Source: Synechococcus sp. ROS8604 (GTDB lineage: Bacteria; Cyanobacteriota; Cyanobacteriia; PCC-6307; Cyanobiaceae). Taken from it: 64,000 bases of DNA. Under the pieces are notes generated by a model. The model had not been told where the DNA came from, ran no database searches, and saw nothing but the letters and a program-made list of their open reading frames with translations. This document shows positions 5,350 to 60,135 of the stretch, one piece after another (position 1 is the first letter of the stretch; every line of letters starts with the position of its first letter). Location of the stretch: the NCBI RefSeq assembly GCF_014279655.1, contig NZ_CP047946.1, positions 806,001 to 870,000 of the forward strand, read 5' to 3'. Both the position numbers and the translations under genes were made by a program.

Positions 5350-6135
5350 ATGGGACGTACGCAACGCAAGCTTCCAGCAGGTCACGCCTTTCACATCACG
5401 CTCAGGTGCAATAGCCGACAGTTTCTAATTGCCAAAGGCTTGAGAAGGGATGTGCTTCTTGCTGTGCTCACTAAAGCCAAACAAAAAGTGCCACACAAGT
5501 TGTATGCGGTGTGCCTGATGGCTAATCACCTGCACTTGCTAATCAGACCTGACGATGCATCACAGCTGCCAAAGCTGATGCATTGGTTTGGCTGGTATTC
5601 AGCCATGGCACTAAACCGCCTTTCTGGTCGTTGCGGGCATTTTTGGGAGGCGAGGTATTACGCCACTGCGATTGCTCCAACAGACCACAGGCGAGTGCTG
5701 AATACATTGCGTTATATCCACGCCAATCCAAAGGCAGCAGGAATAAGAAAAGGGTTTTATGACCCCTATTCCAATTACGGGCATTACGGAAGATTGGCGT
5801 GTGATGGCATCAGTGAGTGGCACCCAAGCTTTCTGCAACTGGCATCAAGCCTGAAGGGTTGTTCCAGGCGATATGCACGGTTCTGCCAGCACTACCGGCA
5901 CAAAAGCAAAGGCGGCTCTAGGTGCCATTGGGGCTCAAGAATGCTGAAACGATTAGTTGAAAAAGGCAGAAGCAGTCAAAGCAGGAAGAACCGGGTCTCA
6001 CCAGGACAACAGAAATTACCCTTTGCATTTGACATTCGTCTTAATCAAATTCCAGAAGAGTGGCATCAAGTCGCGGTGAGATTTAGAAGAGCAAATGGCA
6101 TCCGTGATGGCGATCAAATCCTCAAGCTGTGGTGA
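5350..6135 (+). CDS. REP-associated tyrosine (Y1/HUH) transposase, copy 1
   Basis: A 261-residue protein of the Y1 transposase superfamily, REP-associated (RAYT) type. It has the HUH-like histidine pair in MANHLHLLIRP (residues ~57-67). A catalytic Tyr is expected in the helix after FWEARYYATAI (~98-108), and RVLNTLRYIHANPKAAGI (~115-132) is the usual conserved helix of these enzymes. RAYTs nick single-stranded REP hairpins and are thought to move REP sequences. The copy at 30878 is about 90% identical in protein. The GC-rich hairpin 60 bases upstream is the likely substrate. Confidence 0.85.
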   Translation: MGRTQRKLPAGHAFHITLRCNSRQFLIAKGLRRDVLLAVLTKAKQKVPHKLYAVCLMANHLHLLIRPDDASQLPKLMHWFGWYSAMALNRLSGRCGHFWEARYYATAIAPTDHRRVLNTLRYIHANPKAAGIRKGFYDPYSNYGHYGRLACDGISEWHPSFLQLASSLKGCSRRYARFCQHYRHKSKGGSRCHWGSRMLKRLVEKGRSSQSRKNRVSPGQQKLPFAFDIRLNQIPEEWHQVAVRFRRANGIRDGDQILKLW

Positions 6136-7555: not shown

Positions 7556-9991
7556 TTAGTTGAAAATGTATTTGCTGTCCAATGCTAAAAGCAAATTGCC
7601 ATCGCCTCGTGGAAGTCTCTCCTTTGCTAAATGATTTATTTTTAACGTATCTGCAAGCTCTGCTAATGGGTCACCATCACAGACCCTCACAAAGGCTTCT
7701 CTGATGCGTTCATGTGCCTCTTCCATATCGATTGGAAGCACGGCTATGCAGTCATGAATAGTGCTTAATGGCTTCTTCCAGTCATGGAATGCAGCTTTCA
7801 GAATTGAACCATCGTAAGAGTGAACGAAATGAGGGCTGAGACCGCTTTTCAACTTGTTGGTGTTGGGTATTTTTAGATTTCCTAGACCAATGCTGACCTT
7901 CCCAAGGAAATGCGTCTCAACCCTGATCGCTTCAGCAGGTTGGTATTCCACGTGTTGGATCCGATCACCATTTGGTGTTGTCCAGCTATGGGCTGTAGCA
8001 CCTTGTTCTAGTGCCGTTTCTGCGATCTCTTCTAACCAAGCAAGTGTTTCGAATACTGCTGGGAAGGCTTTTCTGCTCGCATTTCTTAGAAGACCAGTCA
8101 GAGCTTTGGTGTCTTCGTAAGACACTGGATTTGGGTATAGGTTTTCTTTGCGTAGGGCCTCAATGATGTCTTGACGGTTTGTCCGATATGACCCGCCGTA
8201 GATAGCCACCATCAACACTGGTTTCCCCAGGCTGCGATAGACGAGATGCTTTGAAAGCCAAGAGGTTGCAGAGTCTGCATCGGCTAACTCTCGTGCGACT
8301 CGTAGTACCTCCAAATAGGCATCCTTTGGCGGTGCTTCTGGGTCGTCCTGGGGTGTCAGGTTGCTGAACTCCATACCCTTTGGATCACGCCTCATAGCGC
8401 TCAGTAGCTGGAGACCTGAGGCTGTTGCATCTGCAGTGACCGGAACATGCCATTTCTCCTGCTGTTTTCGCAGAACAACCTTCACCCACTCCATGGCTAA
8501 TTGAAGGAACTGCCAGAGATCATCTGCCTGTTCCCATTCAGTCGAAGTACCGATGGGGTCGTCTGCAATTGCTTCAAGCAGTCGTGAGTGTGATCTTGTC
8601 CATGCGGCTCGTTCAGAGAGAGTCCCTCGACTGCCAAGAAATGCACCACCAACGGCCTGAGCAGCTACTTCCTCTGATCGCTTGTCGAGCTTGCATCCTT
8701 CGGCAAAGCGTGAGAGAGACTTTTCAAAATCAGATGATTGTCTTCCCAGCCACGCTTGCTGGTCATACAGGCGGCCTCTGAAATCACATTCCCAGCTCAG
8801 ATAAAACTTTGGTTCAGAAGCGAACTTTCTTGCCAACGACAAGACGGCCATTGTTGATCGAGCCTTTTCAATTTGATCGTGATGTGTTTCGTGTAGGGCA
8901 TGCATTTCTTTTCGCCAAGTAATTCTGTCCTCATGATCTGCAGCTAGTTCTTGTAGATACATAGGCATGCCCTCAGCCCTTCGAGGATCGTCTTGAACGG
9001 CCTTCAAGCTGCCAATGGTTAACCCTTTATCCCAGCAGCTTTCGACGGCCTTCAGGACCTCCTGGTCGACGCACCACGCTGTTCTTTGTAGTCAGTTAAG
9101 AAGTCCGATTGCTTCAGCTCCGAAATAACTATCAGAGTGCATTCCTTTTCTTCCACCACAAAGTGGATTGATCTGCCTTAGTAATTGGGAGTGGTATCCG
9201 CCAGATATGTTCTTTCTTGCTGGCTTCTCCTCCAGCTGCCAATCCAGTGGTGGTTCAATCAACGGCCAGGACAAATACGACCATGAATCAATGTCATTTC
9301 TTGCTTTTTCTAGCCAGTCACTTATTGCTTGAGCTGGCATCAAAACATTCTCTGTTTTGTTCTTTGCCATCCGTTTTGGCTGCCTAATGAACCAGCCACC
9401 TTGAATGGCAGCTTCAATCAAGAAAAGCCCGATACCTGTACGAACCTCATTAGCCCACGTCGGAAGGAGATCGTCCTGCGCCCATCCTTTCTCTAAGAGT
9501 TGCTTTTCTACGGACAGCTTGATGCCTATATGCTTATGCCTTGTGGATGAGTTTTTCTTTTTCTTCTTTGCTTTTATCAGTCCTGTGGTTTCTTCTCCTC
9601 CAATTTCAATGTAGTAATTAATTCTGGCTTCTGCTTCTAGTGTTCGGCCAATTATGGTTGCTATATCGACCAGCTTGTTTTTGCCAGTATCAATGAAGTC
9701 AATCATCTTCTTCATCGCGCAATAGGCGACATACTCAATGCCTAACTCTTCTGTTAGTTGATCAGTGTGATTGGCAAACTGAGCCCACTTACTTGCCTTG
9801 CCGCTTGTTACGTCGTCGATTCTGCTCCTTACAGTATCTGAATAAGGTAAGAAGAGGCCTCTGAATAACTCTCTGCCTTCAGTTGTTCCTGAAATATATC
9901 CTTTCTCTTTTGCCGATTGCAAGCCTCTACGTCGCTTGGCTACCGCTTCTCTGTGTGACTGCTCTTCTAGTTTTAGTTGGGTTTTATTCAT
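7556..9991 (-). pseudogene. T7-type single-subunit DNA-directed RNA polymerase, interrupted by one in-frame TGA
   Basis: The frame reads 811 codons (T7 enzyme 883) with a single stop, TGA at 9092-9094 (codon 300). The first 299 residues match the T7 N-terminal region: VAYCAMKKMIDFI...IGRTLEAEARI, then GGYHSQLLRQINPL. The rest has all catalytic motifs: DFRGRLY (~403), DATASGLQ (Asp ~521, equivalent of T7 Asp537), R...K...YGG (~586-598, T7 Arg627/Lys631/Tyr639), HFVHSYDGS (~728) and IHDCIAVLP (Asp ~747, T7 Asp812). The alignment continues without a gap across the stop (LLN-stop-LQRTAW...VLKAV against AQNTAW...VLAV), so this is a nonsense codon, not a frameshift. The start ATG overlaps the integrase stop by 8 bases, suggesting translational coupling. 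The stop may be a mutation or be suppressed (context TGA CTA). Confidence 0.9.
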
Positions 9992-25749: not shown

Positions 25750-26820
25750 ATGCAGCATCGTCTCTCTTTGGGGCTGTTGGCTTCTGCCATCTCTGTTGCT
25801 TCCCTGCCTGCCATTGCTCAAGAGGACGGCAGTGCTGATGATCTTGGTGTGATGAGCATCAGTCTTAATGACGTGGTCAAACCAACCCTTGGTTTTCAAG
25901 GGGCATTGCAGGGCGCAGGCACACCAAACCAAGCAGGTATAGGCGGGTTCTTGCCTCTCTCTGCTGGAGACAACAGCGTCTGGTTCGTTGATGTCCTCGC
26001 TAACGCTAATTTCGCTGATTACGAGAGCTACAGCAGCATTGGACAAACGACCGTTGCTGGCACCACCATCTCGACCTCAACGCGCTTCGGCTACCGCTGG
26101 CTGAATGGTGACCGCTCTTGGATGTATGGCATCAATGCTGGCTATGACAGCAGACCGATGTCAACAGGTGCAACAACCAATGGCATCGAAGTCTTTAATT
26201 CACAAACACCGTTCTTTCAGCAGGTTGCTGTGAATGCAGAACTACAAAGCAACCAATGGGGTGCGAATGTCTATGGATTAATACCGGTTGGGGAATATGG
26301 CTATGGCTCAGACAATGTCGCGTTGATTAATAGTAGCTTTGGAGCAGAGCCGTTAACAACTGTCGGTCTTGATGTTAATTACAACATAAGCAATTCATTG
26401 TCTTTATTGGCAGGTTATTACTACCAAACATGTGAGAAAGAGCCAGAAGTATTTGAAAACTATGCTGAAGGATCTGGTGTTAAAGCACGGCTATAATATG
26501 ACATCAGCAATCAACTACAGGCTGGTGTTGGTTATTCCTATGACGAAAATTTTGAATCCAGGGTGACTGCTGATTTGAAATTACGTTTTGGTGGACCCAA
26601 AACAACAGCAATGAGTAAAGAAGTTCAACAACAACCTGTGATTAAGGCTTTAACCGCAACGCCAAGCAACCGAGACGTAAGGGCGGGGAATTCGTTTATA
26701 TATCTTAACGTTATTCGAATAGGCGAACAAGTTGAGTTTAGAGACAACTTTGGAGATAGGGACAATTGCGGCCCAAACTTCTTGATCCCGTTTGGGGTAA
26801 CGACATGCCAAGCACAATAG
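25750..26820 (+). pseudogene. Outer-membrane barrel gene, broken by an in-frame stop
   Basis: It has a signal peptide (MQHRLSLGLLASAISVASLPA) and then the barrel: GFQGALQGAGTPNQAGIGGF, TSTRFGYRWLNGDRSWMYG and INAGYDSRP, as in the intact 6387-7385 gene. The frame stops at TAA 26494-26496 within GSGVKARL-stop-YDISNQLQ; the intact gene has RLAYEMTSG there. The same frame then continues with RVTADLKLRFGGPKTT, the equivalent 3' part, to 26820. A single nonsense codon therefore removes the last barrel strands. The middle and tail diverge from the intact copy, so this is a separate paralogue, not a recent duplicate. Confidence 0.8.
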
Positions 26821-30877: not shown

Positions 30878-31663
30878 TCACCACAGCTTGAGGATTTGAT
30901 CGCCATCACGGATGCCATTTGCTCGTCTAAATCTCACCGCAACTTGATGCCAGTCTTCTGGCATTTGATTGAGCCGACAATCAAACGCAAACGGTAGTTG
31001 CTGCTGCCCTGGTGAGACCCGGTTCTTCCTGCTTTGACTGCTTCTGCCTTTTTCAACCAGTCGTTTCAGCATGCTTGAGCCCCAATGGCACTTAGGTGTT
31101 CCTTTGGCGTGATGGCGATACTTCTGGCAGAACCGTGCATATCGCCTGGAACAGCCTTTCAGGCTTGAAGCCAGTTGCAGAAAGCTGGGGTGCCACTCAC
31201 TGATGCCATCACATTCCAATCTTCCGTAATGCCCATAATTGGAATAGGGGTCATAAAACCCTTTCCTGATTCTTGCTGCCTTTGGATTGGCGTGGATATA
31301 CCGCAACGTATTCAGCACTCGCCTGTGGTCTCTAGGCGCAATCGCAATGGCGTAATACCTTGCCTCCCAAAAATGCCCGCAACGTCCAGAAAGACGATTC
31401 AGTGCCATCGCTGAGTACCAGCCAACCCAATGCATCAGCTTTGGCAGCTGTGATGCATCATTAGGACGCAGAAGCAGATGCAGGTGATTAGCCATCAGGC
31501 ACACCGCATACAAGCGATGAGGTACTTTCTGCTTTGCCTTAGCGAGCACAGCAAGAAGCACATCCCTTCTCAAGCCCTTGGCAATCAAGAACTGACGGCT
31601 ATTGCACCTGAGTGTGATGTGAAAGGAATGACCTGCTGGAAGCTTGCGTTGCGTACGTCCCAT
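30878..31663 (-). CDS. REP-associated tyrosine (Y1/HUH) transposase, copy 2
   Basis: 261 residues, about 90% identical to the 5350-6135 copy and equally intact: MANHLHLLLRP carries the HUH-like histidines, and FWEARYYAIAIAP and RVLNTLRYIHANPKAA are conserved. Differences cluster in the last third (CQKYRHHAKGTPKC against CQHYRHKSKGGSRC). Its 5' flank with the REP hairpin (31664-31755) matches copy 1, and similarity ends after the stop codon. Two intact, similar copies suggest recent movement or gene conversion. Confidence 0.85.
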   Translation of the reverse strand: MGRTQRKLPAGHSFHITLRCNSRQFLIAKGLRRDVLLAVLAKAKQKVPHRLYAVCLMANHLHLLLRPNDASQLPKLMHWVGWYSAMALNRLSGRCGHFWEARYYAIAIAPRDHRRVLNTLRYIHANPKAARIRKGFYDPYSNYGHYGRLECDGISEWHPSFLQLASSLKGCSRRYARFCQKYRHHAKGTPKCHWGSSMLKRLVEKGRSSQSRKNRVSPGQQQLPFAFDCRLNQMPEDWHQVAVRFRRANGIRDGDQILKLW

Positions 31664-51461: not shown

Positions 51462-51632
51462 GTGAAGCCACTAATTCGGGAACAGCCAACAGAGCCCCTG
51501 GCGGTTCGCGCTGCCCCCAGTTTGATCCGCGAGCTAAATCGTGCCTCTGAGCAAACAGGCGCAAGCCGCAGCCGTCTTGTCCGCGAGTTCATCGAGATCG
51601 GGCTTAAGCGCCTGCCGAAGGACTGCGCCTGA
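51462..51632 (+). CDS. Small ribbon-helix-helix-like protein (56 aa)
   Basis: The only in-frame start is GTG 51462; stop TGA 51630-51632. After a Pro-rich lead the sequence APSLIRELNRASEQTGASRS, RLVREFIEIGLKRL fits the strand-helix-helix layout of Arc/CopG-type DNA-binding domains. It is the first gene of the locus that continues with the polymerase fusion and could be its regulator (inference). No strong ribosome site is visible. Confidence 0.5.
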   Translation: MKPLIREQPTEPLAVRAAPSLIRELNRASEQTGASRSRLVREFIEIGLKRLPKDCA

Positions 51633-51701: not shown

Positions 51702-51866
51702 ATGAGCAACGGCATAGAAGACTTCTGGTCAGCACTTGAAATTGGTGCTCAAGAGGTGATTGAAGCTGATAAGGATTGGATTGAATCAGATGTCGAAATT
51801 CGTCTGATACGTGATCAGTTACGTGCTGAGTATCGACAGCGTTTTAAACGCAAACAGTTCGACTGA
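51702..51866 (+). CDS. Small hypothetical protein (54 aa) upstream of the polymerase fusion
   Basis: ATG 51702 to TGA 51864-51866. An acidic first half (SNGIEDFWSALEIGAQEVIE) is followed by a basic helix (RLIRDQLRAEYRQRFKRKQF). No family recognised. It is co-directional with the 51953 gene and 86 bases upstream of it, so it is probably in the same transcript. Confidence 0.5.
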   Translation: MSNGIEDFWSALEIGAQEVIEADKDWIESDVEIRLIRDQLRAEYRQRFKRKQFD

Positions 51867-51952: not shown

Positions 51953-54900
51953 ATGGACCACAAGTTCGACCAGCTACAGGCACAAGAGTTCTTAGGTGCT
52001 CTTGGTAAAGAGCCCGAGACCACAAGGATTCGAGGTTTCTATGAAAAAACTGATCTTCGAAAAGGTGGTCGCAAAGGGAATCTATGCCCGAATCTAATAA
52101 ATGAATGGCAGGAGGATGGTCGCGGTGTTTATGTCGTTATCAATGAAGGAGGTGATAGGGATGAAGACATCACCCACTGCAATGCATTGTTCAACGAATG
52201 GGATGATCAGCCCAAGGAATGGCAGAAAACAGTATGGAAAGCCCTAGGCCTGCCTGAACCATCAATACAGGCCGATTCAGGTAATAAAAGCATCCACTCC
52301 TATTGGGTCTTAAGTGATTCGATATCAGCAAAGCAATTCAGAGAGCTACAAACGCGCCTAGCTGAATTCTGCAACTCTGACAGCACCCTTTTCAATCCAT
52401 CACGAGTGATGCGCCTTCCTGGCACCTGTCGTGGTGATGGCAAACCTGTTCGGCTGATTAGCAATACGGGGTATCAATATGACCACGCATTTTTTGATCA
52501 ACTGCTGCCACTACTCGAACAGGTTGAAAAGGAGAAGAAGGCACGCCGGTATAAATACGAACCAAGATCATTAGAAGAGATTCGCGATGCCCTAAGCACA
52601 ATTCCCCCACGGGTGCCTGGTACTGGCACTTACATCCAATACCGCAACATCCTGTGGGGCTTGATCAAAGCTGTTGGAGAAGCAGGTGGAACAAAGGACG
52701 ATGCAATTGCACTGATGAAGCAACACAGTCCGCAGTGGACTCACATCGACCAAGTTGCAAACTCTGGTGGTGATTTAGTGAATGCAGGATCGTTTTGGTT
52801 TCACGCAAAGGAAAACGGCTATCAGCTGAAGAACAACGGCACCTCATTTGGGTATCGGAAACAAGACCCCACACGCAAAGAAGTAGAGCAGCGCACCTAC
52901 TTAGAGCTGCTTAATGATCTTTTGGATGACACTGTGCGGAATCGAACTGATGAGGCAATGCCACTTCGAGCGGAATTGATCTCCAGATTTCGCGTGACAG
53001 GAGCCCAAGTCGAGGCTGCTCTATTCAAGATGCAGTTGCAGAAGGAGACAGGCAGTAAGACCAAGGCACCTCCTGACTCTCTTGATCTGAGTCGTATCAC
53101 AGGTCTGGATTATCAGGTTGATGGATTCATCGTCGAAAACGACCAAACCCAGATCTGGGGCAACGCTGGTAGCGGCAAAACCACGGTTGCCATCGGCATA
53201 TCCATAAGCGTGATTTACAGCGAAGGTTTCCTTGACCACGAACATCCGGCAAGGCGTGGCGCTGTTCTATTCATTGCTTCTGACAGCGGTCCTGCACCAC
53301 TTAAAGGAGCGATCCAAGATTTCGGTGTAGCCGAGCGACCTGAATTCAATGAAGGGCCAGGCAAACGATTTCATGTCTGGGCATCAGATCAAGATCAAGG
53401 CATGAGTGCTTGGTCTGCAGATCTACAGGGATGCATAAAGCTCCTCCATTTCGTTAAGGAATACTCCATTGACCTGGTGATCATCGACAGCTGTAAGGCC
53501 GCTCTTGCAGCTACTGATCTCGAATACACCGACAACAAAGGTGTAACAGCCCTTCTGACGTTCTTTAAGGAGGTGATCTGTCCGCACACCACGGTGATCT
53601 GGCTCAACCATGACGGTGCAAAGTCACGAGGTGGTGACTGTCCTGCTGGTGCAAAGGCGTGGAAGGAAATTCCATCCACTGTGCATCACATCACGGTGCC
53701 GTTTGATGAGGAGACAAAAAGACCAGCCAAGACTTATCGCCAATGGTTTGTTCAGAAGAACAGGCTTGGCGGCACGAGAGATTTTCTCTATAAATTTGCC
53801 GATGGCGAATTATCGGTCTTGAAAGGGCAAACAACTCATGGCAATTGCCATTCAGAGTTGGTGGAGGGGATGAGGCAGAAATATCTGAATTCGGACCTTG
53901 AGACATTTACTAAGCAAGATCTTTATAAGGTCTGCCCCACACATGGAGCAAAGACGGTCGCAAACACCCTGACCACAGCCACTAGGGCGAAGCACCCTGA
54001 GATATGCCGACGGGGTCGCGGTCTGTATGCATTGGCGCCCCGCCTTTTAGATGCACTTAAAAACGTGAGGTCTGAATCGGGAGGAACTTCTTCTAAATCA
54101 AGTTCTGAAAGGGCTTCTTCCAATATCCCGTCAACTTCCCGACCACCTGAATCGGGAAGTTCTCCAGGGTCGAGTGTTATTCCCGAGCCTGACCCTTGGG
54201 AAGATGTCGGGAAGAAGGCAAATCCCAGTCACACCAATGGATCTAATGGAAAGTCCTCCCACTCAAGTCCGCATGTAAAAGGGCTTTCGGGAACTGCTGG
54301 TGCATTGATGCCCAAGCCAAATCCCGCTCCAGTAAAGGGGTCTTGCGCGCCGGGCCAAACTGCGGACCTAAAAACAGCCACTAAAACGCCGCTTTGTGAA
54401 ACAAAATCGGCAGCTCAAGGCGCTTTTACGATTGACATTGAGCCAGTTGTTAACTCCTCGTCAACCAAAAAGAAGGCCAAACCGGTTCATAAGACGGCTG
54501 CGTTGTTAACACCGCCTCCAGCTGTCATTGCACCAGTGCCGCGGCCATATTTAGGAAAGCCACTCCCTGGGATCGATTACATCCACCGCGCGCAGGATCT
54601 ACCGAATCCCGATGGCCTGCCGATGTTGTGTGGCTTCGACTTAGAGACCTGGAACAAGCGCACTGATGTCTGGCGGCACAAAGCTTCGTTGTTCCCATCC
54701 CTGGGCGGTGAGATCCGTTTAGCCCAGGTGTTCGATGGCACCAACACCCTGGTAATCGATGTGGCATTGATCGGCCAGAAAGCAATCGATTGGCTCCGCG
54801 TACTTGCCCGGGATTGCGAGCGCACCTTGGTTGGCCACAACTTGTTATTCGAGGCAACCCATTTGATCGGCGCTGGGATTCGTCCGCTGTGCAATTGGTG

Positions 54901-56656
54901 GGACACGATGCTTGCGAGCCAGACCATTGGTGGCTTGAAGGAGGCCAACCTGCAGGCGGTGGCAAAGCACTACATCAGAGAGGACCTCAGCAAGATCGAA
55001 CAGGCTGGTGATTGGGGCAATGCAATCACCGAGTCGAAACTGCGTTACGCGGCTATCGATGCGCAGGTTGTCTTACCTCTGCGTGAAGCGTTGTTAGCGG
55101 AGCTGGAAGCAACCAAGCAGGTGGAAGTGCACAGGCTGGACTGTTGCCGGATCAGCCCTGCTGCCGATGGGCAGGATCGTGGCTTGGCGATTGACTCTGC
55201 TGCTCTCGATGAGATTGAGGCGGCGGCCACAGCGGAATGGGATCCAAAGCGGACGCAACTCCACGCAATGCTCGGGCTGCCGAACCCTGAACCCACAGAG
55301 AGCCAGCCTTATGCCTCAACGGAGCAGGTGCACCCACGCCTTGTTGAAGCACTAGATGGTGAGCAACTCACCAAGGGAGTGAAGAACAAGGAAACCGGCG
55401 AGTGGGAGGATCGTCCCTCTACAGAGAAAAAAGTTCTCCAGAAGTTTGCTGGCGTTCCTGTTGTGGATTTACTGCTGGAGGTAAGAGACCTGGACCGCAC
55501 GCTGTTGGAGGTGAATCAGTTGCGCCGTGATTTGGAGTTTGCAGGTGGTCGTACTCGCCCCGATTACAGGCTGCTGGGGGCCAACACCGGCAGGATCACC
55601 ACAAGCGGTCAGATCGGCGCAAAAGACCTGGGCACTACAGGCCGAGTGATTAATGGGAAGAAGGAGCGGATCACATCCGACTCTGAGGTTTACAAGACAG
55701 GTAAACGGAAGGGCTTGCCTCGGGAAATCAAGCTACCCAGCCAGATCGGTTCCAATTTCCAAGGTCTATCTTCCAGAGTTAAGCGCGCGCTGTGGACTGG
55801 CAACCCTGACTCTTTGCTGCTGGATATCGACTGGGGCAGCCAGGAGATCCGGTTGCAGGCAAGCCCGCGCCTCTACAACGACAGAGGCTTCCGCCGCATG
55901 ATCCTCGACGGGATCGATCCCCACGCCTTGATGGCGTGCACACTGTTCGACTTGGAATTGCCAGAAGACGGCATCGTGAAAAAGGATTGGGTGGAACCCC
56001 ACCAACGCTCCGCAGCGAAGCCAGCCAACTTTTCGTTGCCCTACGGCTGCTTTGTTGCCTCTCTGCGCAGAGCACTCTCGGCAGCACAAGCCGTTGCAGT
56101 GAGCTGGGAGAAAGCTCAGGCCGTTTACGACACCTGGCACGAATTTCACCGCGAGACATCACTGCAGATGGACCGCTTCGATCCCAAGAAGCCTGGTGGG
56201 GGGAACATCTACGAATGCCGCTCTCTGGCTGGTCGCAGGGTTTGCCACTGGGGTCAAGCACCCAAGCCTGATGGCACAGTGCCTCAGTTTCGTATCGGCA
56301 GGACCAATGGCGTTAATTGGCCGATCCAAAGCAGTGGTGCAGACATGATGTCCGAGACCCTGGCAGAAATCTGGCCAGCCCTGGATCGATTCCCTGGCAC
56401 ACGCATCATCGGCTTGGTGCACGATGCTCTGCTTCTTGAAGTTCCTCGCTCTATGGCTGAGGAGGTGAAGGCGGTTGTTGTCGGTGCAATGACCAGTGAC
56501 CGCTTGCGTGATCGCTATTACGGCGACATCCCTTTGGTGGCTGATGCCAACTTCGGGGAGAACTGGGAGGTGGCTCACAACCCACTTTCAAAGCCGAATT
56601 CAGAGGAGGTAGGCAATCTGATGGGACATCGATGTTGCCCATGCCCGTCCGCCTAA
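51953..56656 (+). CDS. Primase-helicase-exonuclease-DNA polymerase A fusion (1567 aa)
   Basis: Domains in order: an AEP/RepB-type primase (~55-185; acidic pair in LFNEWDDQ at 79-86, SGNKSIHSYW at 109-118, RVMRLPGT at 151-158); a PriCT-like domain (~205-290); a RecA/RepA-like ATPase (Walker A GNAGSGKTT 403-411, Walker B DLVIIDS 507-513, VIWLNHDG 548-555); a winged-helix-like region (~640-700); a ~190-residue Ser/Pro/Lys linker; a DEDDy 3'-5' exonuclease (FDLET at 895-899, GHNLLFEA at 961-968, YAAIDA at 1032-1037); and a family A polymerase (TGRITTSG 1212-1219, motif A DWGSQEIR from Asp1293, motif B RSAAKPANF at 1352-1360, motif C LVHDALLLEV with Asp1491). Phe1360 is the usual dNTP-selecting position. 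Motif C has HDA instead of HDE. This would prime, unwind, copy and proofread DNA in one chain. Overlaps the next gene by 25 bases. Confidence 0.9.
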   Translation: MDHKFDQLQAQEFLGALGKEPETTRIRGFYEKTDLRKGGRKGNLCPNLINEWQEDGRGVYVVINEGGDRDEDITHCNALFNEWDDQPKEWQKTVWKALGLPEPSIQADSGNKSIHSYWVLSDSISAKQFRELQTRLAEFCNSDSTLFNPSRVMRLPGTCRGDGKPVRLISNTGYQYDHAFFDQLLPLLEQVEKEKKARRYKYEPRSLEEIRDALSTIPPRVPGTGTYIQYRNILWGLIKAVGEAGGTKDDAIALMKQHSPQWTHIDQVANSGGDLVNAGSFWFHAKENGYQLKNNGTSFGYRKQDPTRKEVEQRTYLELLNDLLDDTVRNRTDEAMPLRAELISRFRVTGAQVEAALFKMQLQKETGSKTKAPPDSLDLSRITGLDYQVDGFIVENDQTQIWGNAGSGKTTVAIGISISVIYSEGFLDHEHPARRGAVLFIASDSGPAPLKGAIQDFGVAERPEFNEGPGKRFHVWASDQDQGMSAWSADLQGCIKLLHFVKEYSIDLVIIDSCKAALAATDLEYTDNKGVTALLTFFKEVICPHTTVIWLNHDGAKSRGGDCPAGAKAWKEIPSTVHHITVPFDEETKRPAKTYRQWFVQKNRLGGTRDFLYKFADGELSVLKGQTTHGNCHSELVEGMRQKYLNSDLETFTKQDLYKVCPTHGAKTVANTLTTATRAKHPEICRRGRGLYALAPRLLDALKNVRSESGGTSSKSSSERASSNIPSTSRPPESGSSPGSSVIPEPDPWEDVGKKANPSHTNGSNGKSSHSSPHVKGLSGTAGALMPKPNPAPVKGSCAPGQTADLKTATKTPLCETKSAAQGAFTIDIEPVVNSSSTKKKAKPVHKTAALLTPPPAVIAPVPRPYLGKPLPGIDYIHRAQDLPNPDGLPMLCGFDLETWNKRTDVWRHKASLFPSLGGEIRLAQVFDGTNTLVIDVALIGQKAIDWLRVLARDCERTLVGHNLLFEATHLIGAGIRPLCNWWDTMLASQTIGGLKEANLQAVAKHYIREDLSKIEQAGDWGNAITESKLRYAAIDAQVVLPLREALLAELEATKQVEVHRLDCCRISPAADGQDRGLAIDSAALDEIEAAATAEWDPKRTQLHAMLGLPNPEPTESQPYASTEQVHPRLVEALDGEQLTKGVKNKETGEWEDRPSTEKKVLQKFAGVPVVDLLLEVRDLDRTLLEVNQLRRDLEFAGGRTRPDYRLLGANTGRITTSGQIGAKDLGTTGRVINGKKERITSDSEVYKTGKRKGLPREIKLPSQIGSNFQGLSSRVKRALWTGNPDSLLLDIDWGSQEIRLQASPRLYNDRGFRRMILDGIDPHALMACTLFDLELPEDGIVKKDWVEPHQRSAAKPANFSLPYGCFVASLRRALSAAQAVAVSWEKAQAVYDTWHEFHRETSLQMDRFDPKKPGGGNIYECRSLAGRRVCHWGQAPKPDGTVPQFRIGRTNGVNWPIQSSGADMMSETLAEIWPALDRFPGTRIIGLVHDALLLEVPRSMAEEVKAVVVGAMTSDRLRDRYYGDIPLVADANFGENWEVAHNPLSKPNSEEVGNLMGHRCCPCPSA

Positions 56657-59600
56657 TCACCCCAAGCCAGCTGTCGCTGTTTTCGATCAGCCCGGTGATC
56701 GGGGCATGGTGGCAGGAGCTGGAAGCGCGCAAACTATTCGAGGGCAATAAACCAGCGGTAAGCGAGCTGGTTCAACAGTTGCGTGACGATGGCTTGCGTC
56801 ATGAAGAGGTGTTGCTCGAGAAGCTGGAGAAAGAGGGGCATCGCATCGCTCGTTTGCCTGGCAAGCAAACGGAGGCTGATTACGCCGCCACGAAGCAAGC
56901 GATGGCTGAGGGGTATGACTTCATCCATCAAGCCTCGTTTTGTGATGGCGGAATGCGGGGCAGCGCCGATCTGCTCAGGAAGATTGAGCAACCGTCAGCT
57001 TTAGGTGAGTGGAGCTACATCCCTATTGAGTGCAAGCTCGCCAGTAAGCCAAAAACCACGTTTCTGGTGCAGGCTTCTGCCTATTGCGAACTGCTGCTCC
57101 CGCTTCTAGGTAGTCGGCCGGATCAGTTCGATCTGTATCTAGGTGGCGGCAGGTTTCAGCGATACAACACGGATCAGTTCTGGGCTTGGTATCAGCATCT
57201 ACGCCAACGCTTCTCAGCCTTTCAGGAACGTTTTGACCCCAGCCAATCGCCTGAGGATGCACCGGGTGATCACAGCAACTGGACAGCGTTCATTGAGGAA
57301 CGGCTAGAGCAGCAGCGCGATTTAATCCTGGTGGCGGGGATGCGCCAAAGCCAACGCAAGAAGCTGCGTGCAAAAGGCATCACCACGATCGAGGAGTTGG
57401 CTGTACTGCCAGGTGGCAGCAGCGTGAAAGGACTGTCAGGCGAGGCGTTGCATGAGTTGCGCCAACAAGCTGAACTGCAGCTCACTCCAGTTGGTCCTGA
57501 TGGCCGTCCGGCCTATCGACTGCGACCTGCCATCACTGGCAAAGGGTTGAGTGCCTTGCCTGCAGCTGATCCCGGCGACATCTGGTTTGACATGGAGGGA
57601 ATCCAGGATTCGGTGGCTGGCACCAAGCTCGAATATCTGTTCGGCGCTTGTTACCGCGATACGCCTGATACCTGTCCAGTGTTCAAGGCTTGGTGGGCCC
57701 ACACCCCAGACGAAGAAAAGGCCGCCTTTGCTGCTTGGGTGGATTGGGTAGAGGACCGGCGCAGGAGCCATCCAGGGCTGCACATCTACCACTATGCGGC
57801 CTATGAAAAAACAGCGATGCGGCGGCTCGCGCAGCAGCACGCCACACGGGAGGCGGAGATCGACGATTGGCTGCGCACCGGTTTGCTGGTGGATCTGTTG
57901 CCAGTGGTGACTAGTTCGATCGTGCTGGGTGAACCGAGCTACTCGATCAAGAAAGTGGAGCACCTTTATATGGAGCAGCGCGAGGCAGGGGTCACCAACG
58001 CTGGTGATTCAGTGGTGGCCTATCTGCACTGGCAACTCTCTGACGAGCCACAGGTTCCAGGCGAGGCTCCTACTTACAGCCCAAAGCTGAAAGCAATTGA
58101 GGACTACAACCGGGAGGATTGCGAAAGCACTGCGCTTTTGCACGACTGGCTGCGTCAACGCAAAGAGGAACTGGGTCTGCCGGAATACCCACTGCAGCAA
58201 TCAAGCGAAGACGAGCAGGAGCTACGGGAGCCGCAACCGCTGGAGCTGCTTAGCCAACAACTCCTTGTTGAGATTCCTGACCCACTTGCTGATGACAATG
58301 CGACCGGACCGCTTGGCTTGAGCTGGAGAGCCCACAAGCTTCTCGCTCAATTGCTGCCCTTCCATCACCGGGAAGCCAAGGTGGGCTGGTGGGCCTATTT
58401 CGATCGCAGGAGCAAAGCTGAACTGAGCCCGGATGAGCTGATTGACGACGGAGAAGCAATCGCGGAAGTTAAGTGGGTAGGGATGGACGAGCGTCCCAGC
58501 GCCAGGACAGGCGCAGACATTCATCACTTCCGTTTTGACCCCAGCCAGCCACTAAAACTGCATGCCGGGAATGGCGACGGGCGGCTGACCGTGGAGCTAC
58601 CAGCCACCGGCCTGAAACTGGATGTCGATGCCCTCGATAGCAAGCAGGGCAGCGTGAGCTTGAAGTTGCCTTGGCGGAAACGCGATCAACGCCTCGCCAA
58701 TGGCGAAGGAGAGGGCATCCCTAAAGAGCCCACTTCGGTGATCAAGGTGCCTGCGGACATCAGCAAACCGTTGCGAGAACGGCTTGAAGAGCAGGCCATG
58801 GAGTGGGTCCACGAGAACAAACCAATTCCCAAAGCAATCGTGCAGCTGCTTGAACGGAAGCCGCTGAAGGAACTCAATGACCTGAATGCAGCGATTGCTG
58901 GAGATCCCAATGCTGTAGCGGGTGCACTGGCGAACTACCTGCAGGAGCATTCCGGCATCAGCCTGGCGCTGCAGGGTCCACCGGGCACCGGCAAAACCAC
59001 AGTCACCGGCCAGGTCATCGCTCAATTAGTGAAAGATGGCCAGCGAGTAGCGATCAGCTCAAACAGCCATCCGGCGATCAACAACCTGCTCAGGAAAGCC
59101 AAGAGCACATGCACTGCCGCAGGCGTGGCGAGCGAGGTGGTGAAGTGCAGCAATGCCAAGGAGGATCCACTGGCGGCTGAAGGCTTCTCTGTTGTCAGGC
59201 CGGACCAGCTCTCAGAAGAGATGGCAGTGGTGGGCGGCACCACCTGGATGTTCTGCAAAGAAGAACTTGATGATCAGTTCGATCTTTTGGTGGTGGATGA
59301 GGCCGGGCAGATGTCGCTCGCCAATCTTCTGGTGATGGCACGCTGTGCTCGCTCAATCCTTCTAGTCGGCGATCAACAGCAACTAGCTCAGCCGTCTCAG
59401 GCCGATCATCCCGGCGATTCAGGCCAAAGCTGCTTGGAGTATTGGATGGAGGGAGCATCTGTGGTGCCCTCCGATCGTGGCGTGTTTCTAGGCACTAGCT
59501 GGCGGATGGAACCCAGCCTCACGGCAATGGTGAGTGAGCTGTTTTATGAGGGCCGGCTCAAGGCCAATCCAGGAAATTGCGCAAACCGCATTGAATGGGC

Positions 59601-60135
59601 AAAACCATGCCAAAGCAAAGCGGGATTGCTATTGCCTCAGCAGGGCCTCGTGTTTGAAGCAGTGGACCACAGCGGTAATAGCGTCTGCAGCGAGGAAGAA
59701 ATCAATCGCATCGAAGAACTGGTGGATGCCCTGCTGGGAGGCCACTACCAACACGCCAAAGCTGGAGAACTTGATAAAGGCCCGCTGACTGCGAGCAAGA
59801 TCTTGGTGACAGCGCCATACAACGTGCAGGTGAACCGGCTGAAGCAACGGCTGGCTGGCAAAGCCCGGGTGGGAACAGTGGACAAGTTCCAGGGCCAGGA
59901 GGCTCCGGTTGCCATTCATTCGCTTACGGCAAGCAGCGGTGATGACGCACCCAGAGGGTTGAGTTTCTTGTTGGAGCCGAATCGATTGAACGTGGCAATC
60001 AGTAGGGCTCAGTGCCTTTCGATTGTTGTGGGCTCCACCAACTTGGCCAGTGGTATCGCAAACACGGTGGCGGAAGCTGAGCAGATCAATCGGTTATGCA
60101 GGCTTCAATCGCACCAATGGTCAAGTAATAAATGA
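56632..60135 (+). CDS. TM0106-type RecB-like nuclease with RNase H-like domain and SF1 helicase (1167 aa)
   Basis: Residues ~1-230: RecB/Cas4-like nuclease (GSADLL with Asp113, then IPIECKL with the ExK pair at ~132-135). ~245-285: helix-hairpin-helix-like (TTIEELAVLPGGSSVKGLSG). ~315-510: RNase H-like exonuclease of the YprB type (IWFDMEG, HIYHYAAYEKTAM, YNREDCESTALLHDWL). ~760-1150: Upf1/Dna2-like SF1 helicase (GPPGTGKTT 782-790, VVDEAGQMSLANLL from 887, LLVGDQQQLAQPSQ, GTSWRMEPSLTAMV, GTVDKFQGQEAPVAIHSL, NRLNVAISRAQ). The whole fits the COG2251 family. A Dna2-like role in end or flap processing is plausible beside a polymerase. The start lies inside the end of the polymerase gene, indicating an operon. 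Confidence 0.88.
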   Translation: MLPMPVRLITPSQLSLFSISPVIGAWWQELEARKLFEGNKPAVSELVQQLRDDGLRHEEVLLEKLEKEGHRIARLPGKQTEADYAATKQAMAEGYDFIHQASFCDGGMRGSADLLRKIEQPSALGEWSYIPIECKLASKPKTTFLVQASAYCELLLPLLGSRPDQFDLYLGGGRFQRYNTDQFWAWYQHLRQRFSAFQERFDPSQSPEDAPGDHSNWTAFIEERLEQQRDLILVAGMRQSQRKKLRAKGITTIEELAVLPGGSSVKGLSGEALHELRQQAELQLTPVGPDGRPAYRLRPAITGKGLSALPAADPGDIWFDMEGIQDSVAGTKLEYLFGACYRDTPDTCPVFKAWWAHTPDEEKAAFAAWVDWVEDRRRSHPGLHIYHYAAYEKTAMRRLAQQHATREAEIDDWLRTGLLVDLLPVVTSSIVLGEPSYSIKKVEHLYMEQREAGVTNAGDSVVAYLHWQLSDEPQVPGEAPTYSPKLKAIEDYNREDCESTALLHDWLRQRKEELGLPEYPLQQSSEDEQELREPQPLELLSQQLLVEIPDPLADDNATGPLGLSWRAHKLLAQLLPFHHREAKVGWWAYFDRRSKAELSPDELIDDGEAIAEVKWVGMDERPSARTGADIHHFRFDPSQPLKLHAGNGDGRLTVELPATGLKLDVDALDSKQGSVSLKLPWRKRDQRLANGEGEGIPKEPTSVIKVPADISKPLRERLEEQAMEWVHENKPIPKAIVQLLERKPLKELNDLNAAIAGDPNAVAGALANYLQEHSGISLALQGPPGTGKTTVTGQVIAQLVKDGQRVAISSNSHPAINNLLRKAKSTCTAAGVASEVVKCSNAKEDPLAAEGFSVVRPDQLSEEMAVVGGTTWMFCKEELDDQFDLLVVDEAGQMSLANLLVMARCARSILLVGDQQQLAQPSQADHPGDSGQSCLEYWMEGASVVPSDRGVFLGTSWRMEPSLTAMVSELFYEGRLKANPGNCANRIEWAKPCQSKAGLLLPQQGLVFEAVDHSGNSVCSEEEINRIEELVDALLGGHYQHAKAGELDKGPLTASKILVTAPYNVQVNRLKQRLAGKARVGTVDKFQGQEAPVAIHSLTASSGDDAPRGLSFLLEPNRLNVAISRAQCLSIVVGSTNLASGIANTVAEAEQINRLCRLQSHQWSSNK

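Follow-up and report, generated by a model that had tools for sequence, protein, structure and literature searches.

Can a whole replisome be carried on a single gene, and what would such a gene replicate? As a rule, a replisome forms transiently from separate proteins, but the frame described here, in the 64,000-nt stretch of Synechococcus sp. ROS8604 DNA (genome positions 806001-870000) that we call the window, appears from its sequence to fix four functions in one chain. The preliminary description of this frame gave its coordinates, strand and length exactly, and its proposal that a primase, a RecA-like ATPase, a proofreading exonuclease and a PolA core are joined in one polypeptide was borne out by Pfam, by a match to the crystal structure 6zp9, by predicted fold and by motifs (Table 1). 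The order in the single chain is AEP, PriCT-2, RepA-like ATPase, winged helix, linker, 3′-5′ exonuclease and family A polymerase. The complete, 2.88-Mb host genome has a separate polA elsewhere. Our reading, with a probability of about 0.7, is that this single chain is the replicase of a satellite-like mobile element of the integrative kind and has been stranded at the margin of a genomic island. The next gene overlaps the replicase ORF by 25 nt, and the two are probably cotranscribed.

Table 1. Features at and around the replicase ORF (window positions; aa numbering of the replicase)
Feature	Position	Strand	Basis
Left border of the ~74-kb island	51367		Synteny with siblings ends, at the 5′ end (first codons) of a cbiET-like gene
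56-aa ORF, likeness to ribbon-helix-helix regulators by eye	51462..51632	+	Kept in G075 at the same place
54-aa ORF just upstream of the replicase, no function assigned	51702..51866	+	ORF list
Putative all-in-one replication protein, 1567 codons, 173 kDa	51953..56656	+	Open frame with ATG start; Pfam, PDB homology, mass
AEP primase-polymerase domain, aa 5-186	51965..52510	+	6zp9 sequence and fold match; catalytic map
PriCT-2-like helical domain, about aa 200-290	52550..52822	+	Collinear S-2L PrimPol homology; all-helical in the model
RecA-like ATPase, RepA/SF4 type, aa 366-626	53048..53830	+	AAA_25 at aa 374-549, E=1e-9, over curated cut-off; predicted fold
Winged-helix-like segment, aa 633-694	53849..54034	+	Three helices and two strands in the model
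Low-complexity linker, aa 701-862	54053..54538	+	57% S/P/T/G/A, Ser/Pro-rich; low pLDDT from 711
DEDDy-type 3′-5′ exonuclease domain, about aa 890-1070	54620..55162	+	DNA_pol_A_exo1 (PF01612) at aa 919-1052, E=8e-16, over curated cut-off; motifs
Family A DNA polymerase domain, about aa 1205-1542	55565..56578	+	DNA_pol_A (PF00476) at aa 1274-1539, E=4e-28, over curated cut-off; motifs; relatives stop at the same His
C-terminal extension, 25 aa past the relatives' ends	56579..56653	+	Comparison of C termini
Downstream gene, 1167 aa, TM0106-type RecB-like nuclease and IGHMBP2-type SF1 helicase	56632..60135	+	TIGR03491, E=1.5e-59, over cut-off

The N-terminal 190 aa of the replicase matched the AEP domain of cyanophage S-2L PrimPol in 6zp9 with E=4e-31 (phmmer), and the protein encoded in the S-2L genome is 41% identical over residues 5-290. 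The latter alignment includes the PriCT-2 region, whose name and limits we take from PMC8065100 and to which the PriCT-like region of the preliminary description corresponds. All eight catalytic positions published for S-2L PrimPol (PMC8065100) are kept, namely Y60, E82, D84, S109, K112, H115, D143 and R154, one of them by a similar residue (Ser for T112 at S109). S-2L PrimPol, the closest AEP that has been studied, polymerizes DNA, and primase activity was absent from it in standard assays (PMC8065100).

An AlphaFold model of aa 1-745, built on 33 sequences, reached a pLDDT of 81. Over 184 aa, its AEP domain superimposes on 6zp9 at an rmsd of 1.3 (Z 29.5). The best fold match of the modeled ATPase was the hexameric replicative helicase RepA of RSF1010 (1olo; Z 21.6, 214 aa), followed at a small margin by KaiC (Z 20.3) and by T7 gp4 (1e0j; Z 18.8), while a profile search of PDB sequences returned RecA and KaiC and not RepA. 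In the model, therefore, the ATPase has a RecA fold that is nearest to RepA. It was modeled as a monomer, and it may form a hexamer and unwind DNA. The stretch of the relatives that is analogous to the winged-helix segment matches LexA_DNA_bind. HMMs and predicted fold back both front domains. Structure prediction, which the preliminary description had proposed for the full chain, succeeded for this part and not for the exonuclease-polymerase half, whose model (pLDDT 52) was set aside; because of this poor model, the evidence for the latter half is its sequence.

The Walker A and B motifs lie at aa 403-410 and 508-513, Exo I, II and III at aa 895, 961 and 1032, and Pol A, B and C at aa 1291, 1352 and 1488. 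From the catalytic residues and folds we infer that the protein primes, unwinds and extends DNA. The exonuclease and polymerase motifs are in the order described previously, with two deviations that had gone unmentioned. Exo II has Glu instead of the Asp of Pol I, and this Glu is common to nearly all relatives. Motif C reads HDA in the window copy alone among those aligned and HDE in its relatives, a change that could lower polymerase activity. The HDA motif raises the question of whether the gene is a decaying remnant, in which the frame looks intact, the function is gone and the polymerase is impaired. The way in which the C terminus runs on for 25 aa into the next gene, the lack of an integrase and the fact that two of the 17 family copies (G227 and G120) are shortened or broken would fit such decay. 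However, all 1567 codons are open, motif C keeps its catalytic Asp, and the residues of the exonuclease, of motifs A and B and of the AEP are intact, so that we regard decay as improbable.

The long linker was the place at which an assembly or sequencing error might have fused two genes, and the base composition does step at this joint. GC3 (third codon positions) rises from 0.47 ahead of the module border to 0.65 behind it. The strongest change point, at codon 872, has z 7.2, against at most 3.6 in 100 shuffles, and lies next to residue 863, the first of the exonuclease-polymerase module. This step at the module border indicates that the two halves of the replicase have different histories. 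It does not point to an artifact: the genome is a single contig that is 99.97% complete, the frame stays open through the linker, which is of the same type in the relatives, and seven further fused frames in related genomes have the same module order and are joined at the same place. The replicase frame is not a join error, for which we see practically no chance.

We searched for the exonuclease-polymerase (exo-PolA) module in whole genomes, and this search recovered its relatives. The module is present in 17 copies, about 50% identical, in 16 of 400 Cyanobiaceae genomes, and in a sample of 291 genomes from the phylum it was not found outside this family (E<=1e-50). Besides the two shortened or broken copies, there are eight long fused frames and seven stand-alone genes of about 650 aa. 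The fused copies are those of the window, G045, G004, G054 (two), G064, G124 (Synechococcus sp. 1G10) and G346, and their front ends differ. By Pfam and PHROG, G045 and G004 carry a D5_N/DUF5906 helicase with a PHROG 'DNA primase' region, and the front half of G346 is nearly identical to that of G004. Both G054 copies contain AAA_25, which in G124 accompanies a DUF3854 primase (over cut-off) and a sub-threshold Toprim match, and the front end of G064 is a VapE helicase. The AEP + AAA_25 (RepA-like) front end on PolA was seen once, in the window copy only, in public collections that are samples. A search for the same architecture, as suggested in the preliminary description, thus found that exo-PolA recurs with different fronts, whereas the exact order AEP, RepA-like ATPase and PolA occurred once.

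In the tree of the module, the window copy pairs with G045, which has a primase-D5 front (support 100/99), while G004 and G346, whose front is of the G045 type, cluster with stand-alone copies instead. As the module tree is at odds with the front-end types, the front ends must have been exchanged. The front half is also modular in itself. ATPases about 39-48% identical to that of the replicase stand behind other primase-type N termini at two loci (L045 and L048); AEP + RepA-like proteins without Pol are encoded on three viral contigs (L172, L173 and L180; 34% over 5-695), and an AEP + ATPase protein without Pol lies inside an 18-kb tRNA-Ala element (L046). A broader generalization, to which we give slightly less than even odds, is that integrative elements of picocyanobacteria carry a family of covalent replisomes made of one exo-PolA and interchangeable fronts (an AEP or DnaG-like primase; a RepA-like, D5 or VapE helicase), each self-sufficient and with one polymerase per helicase subunit.

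Stand-alone genes of the same genus were located at L037:8194-10146, L040:1974-3926, L041:8443-10407 and L042:9350-11302, and no element-type integrase was found in the 18-20 kb that hold each of these four. The stand-alone copies have either lost a front end or are free-standing polymerases. Among viral contigs, the exonuclease-polymerase profile found nothing with strict patterns and, with looser ones, PolA proteins only about 20-30% identical; the Pol module was absent from 80 AEP loci and 21 ATPase loci of viruses. The full-length replicase as query returned no relatives from species genomes or from viral contigs, as the sampled peptides were too specific.

The genomic settings of the fused relatives point to what such a protein would replicate. 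Of the seven fused genes outside the window, six have a divergent tyrosine recombinase (PHROG integrase, phrog_1) 1.5-3.6 kb away, and in two a TerS-like gene follows the polymerase. Three elements are bordered by direct repeats: 33 bp in G045 (17.6 kb), 20 bp in G004 (14.2 kb) and 47 bp of tRNA-Arg in G064 (19.0 kb). The att repeats searched for around both G054 elements were not found. These integrase-linked relatives are located in satellite-like integrative elements, and the template of the replicase would likewise be an element rather than the chromosome. The link to integrated elements or satellites made in the preliminary description is therefore supported, although the window copy lies in no intact element but in an island free of tyrosine integrase. 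An element of this kind does occur elsewhere in the window genome, at 2.07 Mb: its 50-bp tRNA-like repeats are spaced 19.6 kb apart, and it contains an integrase and an AEP-ATPase protein that lacks Pol. Near-identical ORFs are repeated at window positions 5350-6135, 25750-26496 and 30878-31663 and occur again in the region of that element (L050); these are probably insertion sequences.

Comparison with six sibling genomes delimited the surroundings of the window copy. Synteny stops at the position given in Table 1 in five of them and extends to 51647 in G075. In G034 the next gene follows about 60 nt on, and its counterpart in the window genome starts at 931.56 kb, outside the window. The break and the resumption of synteny at ~931.6 kb therefore bound an island of about 74 kb, with the replicase at its left end. 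Neither a tyrosine integrase nor a tRNA was found in this island, nor direct-repeat att borders around it; a tRNA or integrase as its driver was thus rejected. The missing integrase and att repeats weigh against the element reading for the window copy itself. In G101, a 181-bp 5′ piece of the cbiET-like gene occurs twice, 3.7 kb apart (L094:3987-4167 and 7652-7832), which suggests that the start of this gene is a repeated insertion site.

The island contains genes of defense type: an MTES_1575 nuclease-helicase (PADLOC PDC-S37 match) and a type I restriction subunit that resembles HsdR. In such a variable island, and with no integrase at its side, the replicase might no longer replicate an element and might instead benefit the host, in repair synthesis or in defense together with the RecB-like nuclease and SF1 helicase encoded downstream. 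We consider this use unlikely, though less so than decay. Defense models match the replicase over the exonuclease only, most fused relatives adjoin integrases, and the downstream-type nuclease-helicase gene often occurs where the polymerase is absent: 25 of 201 family genomes have it, and its presence does not depend on the polymerase. This independence also led us to reject an obligate two-gene system of replicase and RecB-helicase. No finding favors the specialized repair replisome that the preliminary description offered as an alternative. Some 11 kb past the replicase and its neighboring helicase gene, the MTES_1575-type nuclease-helicase of the same island (PDC-S37; L055:8988-14254) adjoins a trypsin-like protease, which resembles the protease part of RT-Protease defense proteins.

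The preliminary description knew of no described case of such a fusion, but apicomplexan PREX (plastid replication-repair enzyme), GP55 of the lactococcal phage 1706 and OS3173 are close precedents. PREX pairs a bacterial TOPRIM-type primase with a Twinkle-like helicase, whereas the window replicase combines an AEP with a RepA-like ATPase. All three have already been described as all-in-one replicases (PREX, PMC8113025; GP55, PMC12205980; OS3173, PMC7689252). The single PREX chain contains primase, helicase, 3′-5′ exonuclease and family A polymerase in the same order; it differs in serving the apicoplast and in its apparent cleavage into separate pieces (PMC8113025). Among relatives of the exonuclease-polymerase module with a solved structure, the PREX polymerase is one of those that score best (E about 5e-46). 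In a 16-row tree, the support of 58/73 and the long branches do not resolve common descent of PREX and the window family, and a descent of PREX from this family was set aside as unsupported. GP55, the 'four-in-one replicase', likewise has helicase, AEP primase, polymerase and 3′-5′ exonuclease in one chain, but its polymerase is of family B rather than A, its helicase comes first and it lacks PriCT or a helix bundle. All four of its activities have been demonstrated biochemically, and it shows that a one-chain fusion with separate primase and polymerase centers can work (PMC12205980). The 1,606-aa Pol polyprotein of OS3173/TOSV ('Pyrovirus') joins a helicase or primase/helicase-like N terminus to exo-PolA (PMC7689252); it comes from thermophilic viruses of Aquificae and has DUF927 in front instead of AAA_25. 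In sister viruses, the parts of the OS3173 type are unfused (PMC7689252).

Other systems share parts of the architecture. S-2L PrimPol has the AEP and PriCT-2 region in common with the replicase, as described above, but is a 737-aa protein with a VirE/SF3-type helicase in place of the RepA-like one and without PolA. By domain order, the PrimPol-PV1 primases (PrimQH and all3500 families) resemble the replicase in AEP, PriCT and winged helix; the domain-organization section of PMC5862659 mentions no PolA fused to them, and it gives their helicases as interchangeable (RepA, VirE, DUF927 and D5), and these primases are often in tRNA-integrated elements (PMC5862659). The fused relatives are similar to tycheposon-type picocyanobacterial islands in their tRNA or repeat borders and tyrosine recombinase, both of which the window copy lacks. 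In the open-licence literature, we found no paper on AEP + RepA-like + exo-PolA or on its front-end-swapping family. What is new is this combination, the exchangeable fronts on one PolA module and their home in picocyanobacterial integrative elements.

In the mechanism that we propose for a one-polypeptide element replicase, the AEP/PriCT-2 unit would prime single-stranded DNA, the RepA-like ATPase would ring one strand and unwind the duplex, and the winged helix may place the replicase at an origin. The exo-PolA part, tethered by the flexible linker, would receive the primer and carry out proofread extension. With a hexameric ring, each helicase would be accompanied by about six primases and as many polymerases. 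According to a passage of Kazlauskas et al., AEPs without proofreading are mainly primases in vivo (PMC5862659), which fits their fusion to a proofreading polymerase. The simplest origin would be an in-frame fusion of adjoining helicase and exonuclease-polymerase genes, in which a virus-type primase-helicase gene was joined to an exo-PolA gene and the front end was then exchanged repeatedly within the exo-PolA family. In a Cyanobacterium aponinum plasmid, a DnaB-like helicase gene is followed directly by an exonuclease-polymerase gene whose product is about 29% identical to the module, and in Microbacterium phage Lynlen the primase/helicase and Pol I genes overlap by 4 nt.

The family offers a bacterial counterpart of PREX as well as a series of natural chimeras, in which the polymerase is constant and the front end varies, RecA-fold and SF3-type helicases included. 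With such a series it can be tested whether specific contacts with the helicase are required by the polymerase or tethering suffices, and it can be asked how many polymerases one ring helicase can use. The proteins are also candidate single-enzyme systems for primer-free DNA amplification.

The viral searches also returned long polymerase and primase frames of other kinds. A 1459-aa family A polymerase (L295:2518-6894) was rejected as a viral long fused frame, as its length is due to an intein with splicing and LAGLIDADG domains within the polymerase domain. In an S-2L-type primase-helicase (L122:7503-11681), the Walker A region is split by a LAGLIDADG homing-endonuclease stretch, apparently also an intein. 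At two further viral loci (L287:3763-6870 and L248:78-3134), a uracil-DNA glycosylase-like domain is fused to a 3′-5′ exonuclease and a family A polymerase.
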